55,526 nucleotides of DNA, taken from assembly GCA_020850615.1 (NCBI GenBank), contig JADZEI010000024.1, forward strand, positions 1 to 55,526, given 5' to 3'. The notes beneath the pieces are model-generated. The model searched no databases. It was given only the letters and a program-made list of their open reading frames with translations, and was not told the DNA's origin. The stretch comes from Dehalococcoidia bacterium. GTDB lineage: Bacteria > Chloroflexota > Dehalococcoidia > Tepidiformales > Tepidiformaceae. The first letter of the stretch is position 1, and every line of letters begins with the position of its first letter. The position numbers and the translations under genes were made by a program. This document shows, piece after piece, positions 11,191-15,789 of this stretch.

Positions 11191-11219
11191 TTGACGTGCC
11201 ACCCCCTCCACCCCACAAT
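11191..11219 (+). promoter_or_regulatory. Promoter of comM-like gene, leaderless
   Basis: TTGACG at 11191-11196, a 17-nt spacer and CACAAT at 11214-11219, then 7 nt to the ATG at 11227. This is one of the best -35/-10 pairs in the window. It leaves no room for a Shine-Dalgarno. Confidence 0.7.
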
Positions 11220-11226
11220 CCCCGCG

Positions 11227-12753
11227 ATGTTGGCACGAGTCCAGAGCTGTGCGGTCATTGGGCTCGAAGGCGAGCTCGTCGACGTCGAGATCGACATCGC
11301 TCGCGCCCAGGAACCGCGCATCACCGTCGTCGGCCTCCCCGATGCCGCCGTCCAGGAATCCCGCGAGCGCGTCCGCGCCGCCATCAAGAACAGCGGCTTC
11401 ACCTTCTCCACCGGCACCCGCGTCACCGTCAACCTGGCCCCCGCCGACCTGCGCAAGGAAGGCCCCGCCTACGACCTCCCCATCGCCGTTGGCATCCTTA
11501 CTGCCCTCGGACACGTGGTCGCCGACCTCTCCGGCGCCGTCTTCCTCGGCGAGCTCGCCCTCAATGGCGATGTCCGCCCCGTGCGCGGCGTCCTGCCCAT
11601 GGTCGCCCTGGCGAAGGCCCGTGGCATGTCTCGCGCCTTCGTCCCCATCCAGAACGCCGCCGAGGGCGCCCTCGTCGAAGGCATCGCCGTCCACCCCGTG
11701 CCCTCGCTCTCCGCGCTCGCCGCCCACCTCCTCGGCGCCGCAGACCTCGGCACCGCCACGCCGCCACCGCCCACCTCAGCCGAAATCCCGCCCGGCACCG
11801 ACTTCGCCGACATCGTCGGCCAGGAGCACGCCAAGCGCGCGCTCGAAGTCGCGGCCGCCGGCGGGCACAACCTCATCCTTCGCGGCCCACCCGGCAGCGG
11901 CAAGACCCTGCTCGCCCGCGCCCTCCCCTCCATCCTCCCGCCCATGACCGGCGACGAAGCGATGGAGGTCACCCGTATCTATAGCGTCGCCGGCCTGCTC
12001 TCGCCCGGGACCGGGCTCATCACCGCGCGCCCGTTTCGGGCGCCCCACCACACCATCTCGAACGCCGGTCTCGTCGGTGGCGGCTCCGTCCCCCGCCCGG
12101 GCGAGATCACCCTCTCGCACCGCGGCGTCCTCTTTTTGGACGAGTTGCTCGAGTTCGACCCGCGCGTCCTCGAAGTCCTCCGCCAGCCGCTCGAGGACAA
12201 GATCGTGACCATCTCGCGCGCCCGCCAGGCGGTCACCTTCCCCTCCAGTTTCTCGCTCATCTCCGCCCTCAACCCCTGCCCCTGCGGCTTCTATGGCGAC
12301 ACCGAACGCGATTGCGTCTGCCCGGCCAACGTCGTTTCCCGTTACCAGCGCCGCATCTCCGGCCCGCTCCTCGACCGCATCGACCTCTTCGTCGACGTGC
12401 CCCGCGTGGATTACGAGAAGCTCGCCGCCGCAAAGCGTGGCGAACCTTCCGCCGCAGTCGCCGACCGCGTCGCCCGCGCGCGCGAGGTGCAGCACGCCCG
12501 CTTCGGCGCCCACGCCGCGACCAAGACGAACGCGGACATGACGCCCCCGCAGGTGCGCGACTTCGCCCAGCTCCAGCTCGAATCCGCTGCGACCGAAATC
12601 CTGCGCCTCGCGGTCAAACAGCTCGACCTCTCCGCGCGAGCCTTCCACCGCGTCCTCAAGGTCGCCCGCACCGTCGCCGACCTCGCCGGCAGCGACCCCA
12701 TCGGCGCCGCCCACATCGGCGAAGCCATCCAGTACCGCGAACGCATGGAGTGA
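11227..12753 (+). CDS. comM: YifB/ComM family Mg-chelatase-like AAA+ ATPase
   Basis: A 508-residue AAA+ ATPase. An N-terminal ribosomal-S5/Lon-like ChlI domain (residues 1-170) is followed by the AAA+ core with Walker A GPPGSGKT at 220-227 and Walker B VLFLDELLEF near residue 300, then a small C-terminal helical domain. The conserved cysteines NPCPCGFYGDTERDCVC are present. Characterised ComM is a hexameric helicase that assists branch migration in natural transformation. Other competence genes are not seen nearby. Normal length. Confidence 0.9.
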   Translation: MLARVQSCAVIGLEGELVDVEIDIARAQEPRITVVGLPDAAVQESRERVRAAIKNSGFTFSTGTRVTVNLAPADLRKEGPAYDLPIAVGILTALGHVVADLSGAVFLGELALNGDVRPVRGVLPMVALAKARGMSRAFVPIQNAAEGALVEGIAVHPVPSLSALAAHLLGAADLGTATPPPPTSAEIPPGTDFADIVGQEHAKRALEVAAAGGHNLILRGPPGSGKTLLARALPSILPPMTGDEAMEVTRIYSVAGLLSPGTGLITARPFRAPHHTISNAGLVGGGSVPRPGEITLSHRGVLFLDELLEFDPRVLEVLRQPLEDKIVTISRARQAVTFPSSFSLISALNPCPCGFYGDTERDCVCPANVVSRYQRRISGPLLDRIDLFVDVPRVDYEKLAAAKRGEPSAAVADRVARAREVQHARFGAHAATKTNADMTPPQVRDFAQLQLESAATEILRLAVKQLDLSARAFHRVLKVARTVADLAGSDPIGAAHIGEAIQYRERME

Positions 12754-13199
12754 CCTGCCCCTTGCCGCTGGACCATGTCCGCCCGTCTACGAACCCCGCC
12801 TGGGGCCCGAAACAGCGCGCCCACCGACACTAGGGCGAACACCTCGGCGAAGAAAGCGCCTCCCGCGGCGAAGTACCCCACGCGTGCGGTGAGGCCCGGA
12901 TCCTGTTCGTCGGGCGGCCATCGCCGTCGCTATACGTCATGTATCCGATGAACCCGGCGCCAATCACAACCGCGACCATGGCGACCACGACCACGGCCCC
13001 GACCACCCTCCTGCCTTTCACCACCAGCACGAGTGGAGCCGGGAGGCTCAACGGGAACAGGAACCCGATAAGCAGGATCCACGACCCGTCGGGTCTCCTT
13101 CGACAGCATCCTACAAATGTGGCGCCCCGCGCGCCCTCGGGTCGAAAGCACCCGTCTCCTGCCACACCGGCTCCCTCGAACGGGAATCTCGTGGACTTA
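12754..13199. other. Long intergenic stretch, mostly unexplained
   Basis: About 450 bp with no confidently called gene. A possible small minus-strand membrane ORF crosses it (listed separately). No RNA gene or terminator was recognised. The plus-strand text at 12930-13070 is poorer in GC than its surroundings. Confidence 0.4.
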
Positions 13200-13249
13200 G
13201 AACAAATGTGTTGACAACAGAACACCCGTTCTTCTACGCTTGCCGGCAC
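12830..13249 (-). CDS. Possible small two-helix membrane protein, start uncertain
   Basis: The open frame contains two good hydrophobic segments (WILLIGFLFPLSLPAPLVLVV and VVGAVVVVAMVAVVIGAGFIGY), joined by KGRR and followed by a polar tail. The only canonical starts are a GTG at 13249, whose leader overlaps the LexA-like boxes, and internal GTGs. It may be a small real gene, possibly divergently transcribed from the operator region, or chance. No family was recognised. Confidence 0.25.
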   Translation of the reverse strand: MPASVEERVFCCQHICSKSTRFPFEGAGVAGDGCFRPEGARGATFVGCCRRRPDGSWILLIGFLFPLSLPAPLVLVVKGRRVVGAVVVVAMVAVVIGAGFIGYMTYSDGDGRPTNRIRASPHAWGTSPREALSSPRCSP

Positions 13250-13267
13250 CCTCTAGAACGGATGTGC
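13200..13267 (+). promoter_or_regulatory. LexA-type operator cluster and promoter
   Basis: A perfect GAACACCCGTTC (GAAC-N4-GTTC) lies at 13220-13231. It sits inside the 18-nt spacer between TTGACA (13211-13216) and TACGCT (13235-13240). Two weaker boxes flank it: GAACAAATGTGT at 13200-13211 and GAACGGATGTGC at 13256-13267. GAAC-N4-GTTC is the LexA operator of Gram-positive-type bacteria. An operator in the spacer would block the promoter of the small ORF at 13272. Confidence 0.6.
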
Positions 13268-13271
13268 TGAC

Positions 13272-13490
13272 ATGGTCAACCCCGTCCTCACGATCCTCTT
13301 CGACATCTTCCTCATCGGCAGCGGGGCAACCATCCTCGGCGGCATGATCCTGGAGTATCGCGCGTCCCGCCGCGGCGCCGTGGGCGGTGTAGCCGTCCCT
13401 TTCCGGCGCCGCCAGCCCGCGCAGCTCTCCCCTCGGACGCGGGCACGCGCGGGTAGCGTTGGCCGCGCCCGGCGCCGGCTGGCCGCCTGA
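13272..13490 (+). CDS. Small single-pass membrane protein, putatively SOS-controlled
   Basis: A 72-residue protein with an N-terminal hydrophobic helix (about residues 4-27, PVLTILFDIFLIGSGATILGG) and a strongly basic tail rich in Arg. Its upstream region holds a TTGACA-type promoter whose spacer is a perfect GAAC-N4-GTTC box. Small one-helix basic proteins under LexA control in other bacteria include division inhibitors such as YneA and SidA, but there is no sequence identity to claim that. No strong Shine-Dalgarno. The gene itself is plausible rather than certain. Confidence 0.45.
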   Translation: MVNPVLTILFDIFLIGSGATILGGMILEYRASRRGAVGGVAVPFRRRQPAQLSPRTRARAGSVGRARRRLAA

Positions 13491-13515
13491 CAATCCCGAT
13501 CCCGGCGGAGTTGTG

Positions 13516-15789
13516 TTAGCGGTTCCCGGTCCGCAGCGCCGGCAGGGGCTCGTTCAGCTTGCCGCGCTTCCGGTCGATCGCGCGCTCCACGCTCCGCACC
13601 CCGCGAATGATCTCCATCCGCGAAAGCAACCGCGAGAGCTGTTCGATGCCCGTCGTCTCCAGCGTCGCCAGGATGCTCACTGACCCGTCGCCGTTCTCGA
13701 TCGTCCGCACGCCGACCATGTTGACCTTCTCGTCGGTGACAACCGTCGTGATGTCCCGGAGCAGCCCGACGCGGTCCCACGCCTCCACCCGGACCGCCAC
13801 CGGGTAGAGCTTGGTCACCGATCCCCACTCCACCTCGACGATCCGGTCTCGGTCGTCCACGTTGAGGACGTTATGGCAATCCGCACGGTGCACTGTCACG
13901 CCTCGCGTCCGCGTCACGTAGCCGACGATCTGGTCGCCCGGCACCGGGTTGCAGCACCGAGCCATCGTCGTCAGCAGGTTTCCGACGCCGAGCACCCGCA
14001 TGCTCGGGCTGCCCACGGTCGCCGGCGCCTGCTTCGTGGGGGCCGGCGGGAGCTCCGGCTCGGCCTGCGCCTCTTCCTCCTGGATCAGCGCGCCCAGCTT
14101 CCGGGTCACCGAGTTCGTGCTGACGCCGCCGTAGCCCAGCGCCGCGAAGAAGTCCTCGGCGTTCGTGTAGTTGAACAACGCCAGGATCTGGTCCTGCCGC
14201 TCGCTCAGGTCCACGCCCAGCCGCCGCATCTCCTTTTCGAGCATCTCCCGCCCGCGCTCGATGTTCTCCGCCCGCTCCTGCCGCCGGAACCACTGCCGGA
14301 TCTTCTCTTTCGAGTGCGTCGTCCGCACGTAGCCCAGGTTCGGGTTCAGCCAGTCCCGCGATGGCCCCTTGCTCGTCCGCGACCGCATGATCTCGACGAC
14401 ATCGCCGTTCTTCAGCGTCGCGTTCAGCGCCACCATCCGGCCATTCACCTTCGCCCCGACCGTCTGGTTCCCGAGGTCCGTGTGGATCCGGTAGGCGAAG
14501 TCCAGCGGCGTCGCCCCGGCGGGCATGTCGATCACGTCGCCCTTCGGCGTGTAGACGAATACCTGGTCGTGAAAGATGTCCGTCTTCACGCTCTCGACGA
14601 ACTCTTCCGCGCCCGCGAGGTCACGCTGCCAGTCGAGCAGCTGCCGCAGCCAGGCGATCCGCTCCTCGTCGCGGCCCGTCTGCTTCTTCCCTTCCTTATA
14701 CCGCCAGTGCGCCGCGACCCCGTACTCCGCCACCCGGTGCATGTCGTACGTCCGGATCTGGATCTCCAGCGGCCGCCCGCCAAGCCCCACCACCGTCGTG
14801 TGGAGCGACTGGTACATGCTGTCCTTCGGGTTCGCGATGTAGTCGTCGAACTGGCCCGGCATCGGCCGCCAGAGCGCGTGCACCACACCGAGCGCGTGGT
14901 AGCACTCCGCCAGCGTGTCCACGAACACCCGCACCGCCAGCAGGTCGTAGATCTGGTCGAACGACTTCGACTGGTGCGCGTAGCGCATCATCTTGTGGTA
15001 GATGCTGTAGATGTGCTTCGCCCGGCCGGTCACCTCAGCCCGGATGCCCGCCGCCGCCAGGTGCTCCCGCAGCGACGCGGTCATCTCGTCGATGTAGCGC
15101 TGGCGCGCGTCCCGCTTGGAGGCGAGCAGCTCCGCGATCTCCCGGTATTTCTCGGGCTCCAGGTAGCGGAACGCCAGGTCCTCCAGCTCCCACTTGATCT
15201 GCCACACGCCCAGCCGGTTCGCCAGCGGCGCGTAGATCTCCATCGTCTCGTGGGCGATCCGCCGCTGCTTGTCCGCGTTGAACGCCCACAGCGTGCGCAT
15301 GTTGTGCAGCCGGTCGCAGAGCTTGATCAGCACCACCCGGATGTCCTCGGCCATTGCCAGGAACATCTTCCGCAGGTTCTGCGCCTGCACGCCGTCCCGC
15401 GCCAGCTGGTCGTTCGGTGCGAACCGCATCGGCAGCTTGTCCAGCTTGGTCAAACCGTCCACCAGCCGCGCCACGTCGTGCCCGAACTTCTGCTCGATGA
15501 TGTCGTTCGAAACGCCGCAGTCTTCCTGGACATCGTGCAGGAGCGCCGCCGCCAGCGCGTTGTGGTCGAGCTCGAGCTCCGCGACGAGGTACGTCACCGC
15601 CACCGGGTGCGTGATGTACGGGTCACCGGTCCGCCGGATCTGCCCTTCGTGGCAATCCCGCGCGAACGCGTAGGCCTCGCGGATGATCCCCAGCCGCTCC
15701 CCGGGAATGTAGGCCGTGGCGCGAGCGAGCACCGCATCGAAATCGGGATCGACGGCAGAACGGCTCGGCTCCTGCGCGCGTGCCTGCAA
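13516..15789 (-). CDS. Bifunctional (p)ppGpp synthetase/hydrolase, RelA/SpoT family
   Basis: A 757-residue long RSH protein that makes and degrades the alarmone (p)ppGpp. Domains in order: HD hydrolase (about 40-190, with the metal motif ALLHDVQEDCG), synthetase (about 235-360, GRAKHIYSIYHKM, then YQSLHTTV and EIQIRT), TGS (about 395-455, VFVYTPKGDVIDMPAGATPLDFAY), a helical and conserved-cysteine region (MARCCNPVPGDQIVGY), and a C-terminal ACT (about 675-745). Both catalytic halves look intact. The start is a TTG at 15789 with GAGG 5 nt upstream. It is divergent from hisS. Confidence 0.95.
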   Translation of the reverse strand: MQARAQEPSRSAVDPDFDAVLARATAYIPGERLGIIREAYAFARDCHEGQIRRTGDPYITHPVAVTYLVAELELDHNALAAALLHDVQEDCGVSNDIIEQKFGHDVARLVDGLTKLDKLPMRFAPNDQLARDGVQAQNLRKMFLAMAEDIRVVLIKLCDRLHNMRTLWAFNADKQRRIAHETMEIYAPLANRLGVWQIKWELEDLAFRYLEPEKYREIAELLASKRDARQRYIDEMTASLREHLAAAGIRAEVTGRAKHIYSIYHKMMRYAHQSKSFDQIYDLLAVRVFVDTLAECYHALGVVHALWRPMPGQFDDYIANPKDSMYQSLHTTVVGLGGRPLEIQIRTYDMHRVAEYGVAAHWRYKEGKKQTGRDEERIAWLRQLLDWQRDLAGAEEFVESVKTDIFHDQVFVYTPKGDVIDMPAGATPLDFAYRIHTDLGNQTVGAKVNGRMVALNATLKNGDVVEIMRSRTSKGPSRDWLNPNLGYVRTTHSKEKIRQWFRRQERAENIERGREMLEKEMRRLGVDLSERQDQILALFNYTNAEDFFAALGYGGVSTNSVTRKLGALIQEEEAQAEPELPPAPTKQAPATVGSPSMRVLGVGNLLTTMARCCNPVPGDQIVGYVTRTRGVTVHRADCHNVLNVDDRDRIVEVEWGSVTKLYPVAVRVEAWDRVGLLRDITTVVTDEKVNMVGVRTIENGDGSVSILATLETTGIEQLSRLLSRMEIIRGVRSVERAIDRKRGKLNEPLPALRTGNR

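Follow-up and report, generated by a model that had tools for sequence, protein, structure and literature searches.

The locus and its promoter

The window, which is the whole stretch of DNA that was analysed (55.5 kb), comes from a member of the family around Tepidiforma (Chloroflexota, Dehalococcoidia), as delimited from named records. Between comM/yifB and a convergent relA/spoT gene, it contains a 72-aa ORF for a predicted membrane microprotein, preceded by a promoter with three LexA boxes (Table 1).

Table 1. Coordinates of the features at the microprotein locus, as positions in the window
Feature	Position	Strand	Evidence or remark
comM/yifB, upstream neighbour	11218..12753	+	TIGR00368, 573 bits
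LexA box 1, GAACAAATGTGT	13200..13211	+	One-base overlap with the -35 hexamer; PWM rank 2 in the window
-35 hexamer TTGACA	13211..13216	+	TTGAC in 31/31 aligned loci
LexA box 2, GAACACCCGTTC	13220..13231	+	Inside the promoter spacer; PWM rank 1 in the window
-10 hexamer TACGCT	13235..13240	+	Family consensus roughly TAnnnT; position conserved
LexA box 3, GAACGGATGTGC	13256..13267	+	Between -10 and ATG, in the presumed 5' leader; PWM rank 4
GGATGTG, probable ribosome-binding site	13260..13266	+	Within box 3; central GGAT invariant
72-aa SOS membrane microprotein ORF, stop included	13272..13490	+	HMM matches in family genomes; dN/dS 0.05-0.35
Membrane helix codons, residues 4-33	13281..13370	+	AlphaFold2; hydropathy and conservation moment; T7, D11, L14, G16, A18 and E28 conserved in the family
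Disordered Arg-rich tail codons, predicted cytoplasmic	13371..13487	+	K/R only after the helix; low pLDDT
C-terminal LAA, possible ClpXP-type degron	13479..13487	+	Homologue ends; tmRNA tags
relA/spoT, convergent neighbour	13516..15789	-	TIGR00691, 786 bits

An earlier sequence-only reading had placed a perfect box within the 18-nt spacer of a TTGACA/TACGCT promoter, flanked by two near matches, and every one of these elements lies where it was said to be. A perfect GAACN4GTTC occurs once in the window versus 0.49 expected. Because a lone perfect box is not significant at that expectation, the cluster was tested instead, using a PWM whose training set consisted solely of lexA and recA boxes from other family genomes. 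By this independent measure, box 2 ranks first in the window and the flanking boxes 1 and 3 rank second and fourth, and no other cluster of three sites in 60 bp was found in the 55.5 kb.

The arrangement recurs across 31 homologous loci. Box 1 is in register in 28 and lies 20 bp from box 2, likewise in 28 loci. Box 2 is found in 30 loci, with one mismatch in its half-sites at the most, and, apart from a single locus, box 3 follows it at a distance of 32 to 36 bp. The -10 hexamer is a weak match that a scan for TATAAT-type sites does not flag; despite this, TTGAC and TAnnnT are conserved in position.

Box 3 is conserved far above what a LexA site needs. Every position except one is invariant or nearly so in the 31 loci, and the box begins 16 to 19 nt before the ATG (16 nt here). 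Its central GGAT never varies, unlike the more variable centres of the other two boxes. Since GGATGTG is one mismatch away from GGAGGTG, box 3 probably doubles as the ribosome-binding site. An RNA hairpin between boxes 2 and 3 (GCACATCCGTTC and GAACGGATGTGC in Tepidiforma) was considered and rejected, because box 2 precedes the -10 hexamer and is not part of a transcript from this promoter. The homologue at L125 (G005:C92) has kept boxes 1 and 3 and lost box 2, and the homologue at L120 (G051:C29) has lost box 1; these natural single-box variants are suited to testing operator function.

LexA boxes elsewhere in the genome

The interpretation of the box as a LexA operator, also made in the earlier reading, held up. 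The genome contains lexA (TIGR00498, 168.9 bits) with GAACATCCGTTC close upstream and recA (TIGR02012, 534.3 bits) with a GAACGCTTGTTC box. The lexA boxes of relatives read GAACAT(C/G/T)CGTTC, and their recA boxes are mostly GAACATTTGTTT. Elsewhere in the genome, GAACANNNGTTC matches 21 times on the forward strand and 19 times on the reverse strand, compared with 3 and 1 for the reversed-pattern control. The box is found upstream of uvrA, two impB/mucB/samB-type (Y-family) polymerase genes, a DEAD-box Lhr-like helicase gene, and a gene for a PHP-domain dnaE2-like polymerase. Family scans gave the DEAD and PHP domains, while the names Lhr-like and dnaE2-like are our own reading of the sequences. 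These box-bearing genes make up a classical SOS set, and LexA control of the 72-aa ORF as part of the SOS response appears close to certain. The boxes give a first predicted SOS regulon for the Tepidiforma clade; among the papers searched, none dealt with the SOS regulon of the Dehalococcoidia or with a checkpoint that responds to DNA damage in this class.

Several further sites were observed. In ten family genomes (L062, L048, L053-L057, L059-L061), TGTTC(C/G)GAAC is conserved immediately before the lexA -35 hexamer, TTGACG. It presents the LexA half-sites in opposite order and is perhaps another operator or the site of another regulator. On the minus strand of L231 (G000:C85:17500-20500), there is a GAACGAATGTTC box, with a TATGGT-like -10 after it, ∼150 nt upstream of the gene for a 90-aa DUF433 protein (PF04255), possibly an SOS-controlled antitoxin-like gene. 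A GAACAAGAGTTC box at G000:C32:112522 (L149) is close upstream of the gene for a 499-aa protein that has no Pfam match at E 1e-4 and by eye resembles a HerA-like ATPase.

A conserved microprotein family

Homologues were found by single-sequence search at E < 1e-4 in 15 of 24 genomes of the same family, and a profile (HMM) search matched 33 of 38 family genomes at an E value of 0.01 or better, the weakest match (G006, E = 0.008) being to a different, frame-broken place. The promoter pattern TTGAC-N30-58-GAACGGATGTNC is present in 34 of the 38 genomes, including 22 of 22 good ones, and the reversed-pattern control gave 0 matches. A diverged one-helix basic ORF lies at the patterned promoter in G014 and G006, which lack a true profile match, and in the weak-scoring G047. 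In G011, the pattern match sits at lexA, and the promoter of the ORF carries a one-base variant of box 3. Profile and promoter pattern combined place the gene in 34 of the 38 genomes; in G022, G002, G008, and G018, it is absent or the genome is incomplete there. Beyond the family, a class sample of 393 genomes yielded one weak partial match (E = 4.9e-4, residues 17 to 68) inside a 207-aa frame, and an overlapping phylum sample of 400 genomes yielded none.

The dN/dS ratio was 0.05 to 0.35 in twelve pairs, which indicates that the ORF is under purifying selection. The N-terminal half with the helix is more constrained than the tail, where pN is higher, in 9 of the 12 pairs. The sequence-only reading had named conservation of the ORF among relatives as a check and had described one helix with an Arg-rich tail; selection and the joint presence of gene and promoter bear out the conservation, and hydropathy, conservation moment, and AlphaFold2 agree with the description.

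In 27 of 31 loci, the ORF is the convergent neighbour of relA, often with comM on the opposite side. At L107, L108, L112, and L028, relA does not adjoin the gene, and gene and promoter persist there. The conserved relA/comM surroundings suggest that the ORF is probably monocistronic and vertically inherited. A phage origin was rejected, as no relative was found among viral contigs. We also rejected a paralogue on contig G000:C47, which encodes an 89% identical protein, because the contig bears the whole comM-ORF-relA region. This orthologous comM-microprotein-relA region (G000:C47:1-4368, L099) has ∼80% DNA identity to the window, and a second, related genome is probably present in the genome bin. 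On the minus strand of the window, positions 12771-13120 contain what is left of a gene for a small membrane protein, seemingly split over two reading frames. A similar stretch on the C47 contig is open, and the split seems to be a frameshift or an assembly error.

The homologues are 66 to 99 aa long. AlphaFold2 predicts a single helix at residues 4 to 33, with block mean pLDDT values of 91 to 97 over residues 1 to 30, followed by a disordered tail. T7 is invariant in the family, and D11, L14, A18, and G38 are nearly so. The conservation moment has its maximum at 100 degrees, with a permutation P value of 0.01 to 0.03 that varies with the range chosen; because the sequences are related, this periodicity is suggestive, not conclusive. 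Every homologue has 0 K/R residues before the helix and 10 to 18 after it, from which the positive-inside rule predicts a cytoplasmic tail (C-in). Arg makes up 28% of the family's tails. The protein ends in Ala in 19 of 31 homologues, 13 of these in AA, and -AA/-VA endings are frequent; roughly half of the genera lack an Ala ending. The tmRNA tags of the clade end in LALAA (GNNRQLALAA in this genome), and together with the Ala endings, this makes a ClpXP-type degron possible. None of the 31 homologues had a match above noise in Pfam, and none was found in NCBIfam, PHROGs, or PDB; by these searches, the microprotein is a new family.

A candidate division checkpoint protein

SOS-induced small membrane proteins that inhibit division are known from the Proteobacteria, Bacillota, and Actinomycetota. 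By analogy, the microprotein most likely works as they do. In Bacillus subtilis, YneA is repressed by LexA from GAACN4GTTC boxes. Like the microprotein, YneA is a small bitopic membrane protein with LexA boxes, and its TM helix serves as the contact surface, binding TM7 of FtsW (PMC13396833). YneA differs in having a LysM domain outside the cell, whereas the microprotein has no LysM domain and an Arg-rich tail that is predicted to lie inside. ChiZ of Mycobacterium tuberculosis (Rv2719c) is induced by DNA damage and shares with the microprotein one TM and a disordered, charged cytoplasmic region, and in ChiZ these two parts suffice for filamentation (PMC7355643). The order of parts in ChiZ is cytoplasmic tail, TM, and LysM outside, whereas in the microprotein the TM comes first and the tail last. 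YneA and ChiZ are N-in, C-out, in contrast to the predicted C-in topology here. No LysM domain was found above noise in a Pfam search of the 31 homologues, and this absence, together with the reversed predicted topology, sets the microprotein apart from the YneA and ChiZ families. SidA/DidA (Caulobacter), SosA (Staphylococcus), and DivS (Corynebacterium) are also small damage-induced membrane proteins and block a late division step, but they belong to other phyla and show no detectable sequence relation to the microprotein. No sequence-family link to YneA, SidA, SosA, ChiZ, or any known division inhibitor was found.

Our best guess, to which we give a probability of about 0.55, is that this LexA-repressed SOS microprotein acts as a division checkpoint protein. 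LexA dimers on the three operators would cover the -35 hexamer, the spacer, and the leader and thereby keep the gene silent until RecA triggers LexA cleavage. A short mRNA would then be translated from the ribosome-binding site embedded in box 3, and the product would insert as a single helix with its N terminus outside and its Arg-rich tail in the cytoplasm. By analogy with the known inhibitors, the helix face formed by T7, D11, L14, A18, M25, and E28 could dock on a membrane protein of the divisome, foremost the FtsW-FtsI septal synthase, and the basic tail would hold to anionic lipid or to divisome tails. Septation would stop until the DNA is repaired, and the C-terminal -AA, which resembles the tmRNA tag of the clade, may let ClpXP remove the protein quickly.

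Genes for FtsZ are present in 36 of 38 family genomes and genes for FtsW/RodA in 38 of 38 (PF01098 also covers RodA). Tepidiforma is the sole cultivated peptidoglycan-bearing genus of the Dehalococcoidia (PMC10284905), and its peptidoglycan implies that a septal synthase exists as a target. The small size, the conserved helix face, the FtsZ and FtsW genes, and the peptidoglycan of the lineage make a checkpoint role plausible. The candidate can be put to the test in its own lineage, which has cultured members with peptidoglycan (Tepidiforma flava and T. thermophila), and its predicted topology would separate contact between helix and FtsW from extracytoplasmic action. A more specific version is tentative, and we hold it at less than even odds: that the gene encodes a damage checkpoint particular to the Tepidiforma family, a division inhibitor of reversed topology with its ribosome-binding site in box 3 and a degron like the tmRNA tag, which evolved independently of YneA, SidA, SosA, and ChiZ and whose helix acts on the septal synthase.

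The main rival is an SOS-induced peptide that acts on the membrane instead of the divisome, dissipating the proton motive force and bringing on dormancy, in the manner of TisB and DinQ of Escherichia coli, which provide the precedent of LexA-controlled, single-helix membrane peptides (PMC8145889, PMC3567139). The helix is consistent with this, being small and hydrophobic and having two acidic residues, D11 and E28, that are conserved. Three operators imply strong repression and hint at a cost of leaky expression, a cost that would be compatible with a toxin and a checkpoint protein alike. TisB and DinQ are, however, shorter, have no Arg-rich tail, and are under antisense RNA control, whereas the homologues here reach 66 to 99 aa with a long Arg-rich tail and gave no match to Pfam or a toxin family above noise (31 homologues). 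With box 3 starting so close to the ATG, a long regulated leader would not fit. At positions 12700-13600, no Rfam match exceeded its gathering score and no antisense site resembling a promoter was found, although an antisense RNA of an undescribed kind may still be encoded there. The conserved helix face also points to a specific partner, although it could equally serve self-association. We consider a peptide of this kind unlikely.

Less probable again is an SOS-induced regulator of RelA/SpoT or of another membrane system, such as a transporter, a protease, or an envelope sensor, with no part in division. It draws on relA being the convergent neighbour in most loci, but RelA/SpoT is a soluble protein, and the gene and its promoter persist at the four loci where relA does not adjoin. 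Lower still, we rank a membrane anchor whose Arg-rich tail binds DNA or RNA and so tethers repair factors or the damaged nucleoid to the membrane. The Arg content of the tail and its predicted cytoplasmic location would suit such a role; the constraint, however, lies in the helix, and the tail is the less conserved half. Finally, chance boxes beside a spurious ORF, as the expected number of perfect boxes and the weak -10 might allow, have a negligible probability, since purifying selection and the conservation of the ORF with its promoter across 34 of 38 genomes already refute this reading.
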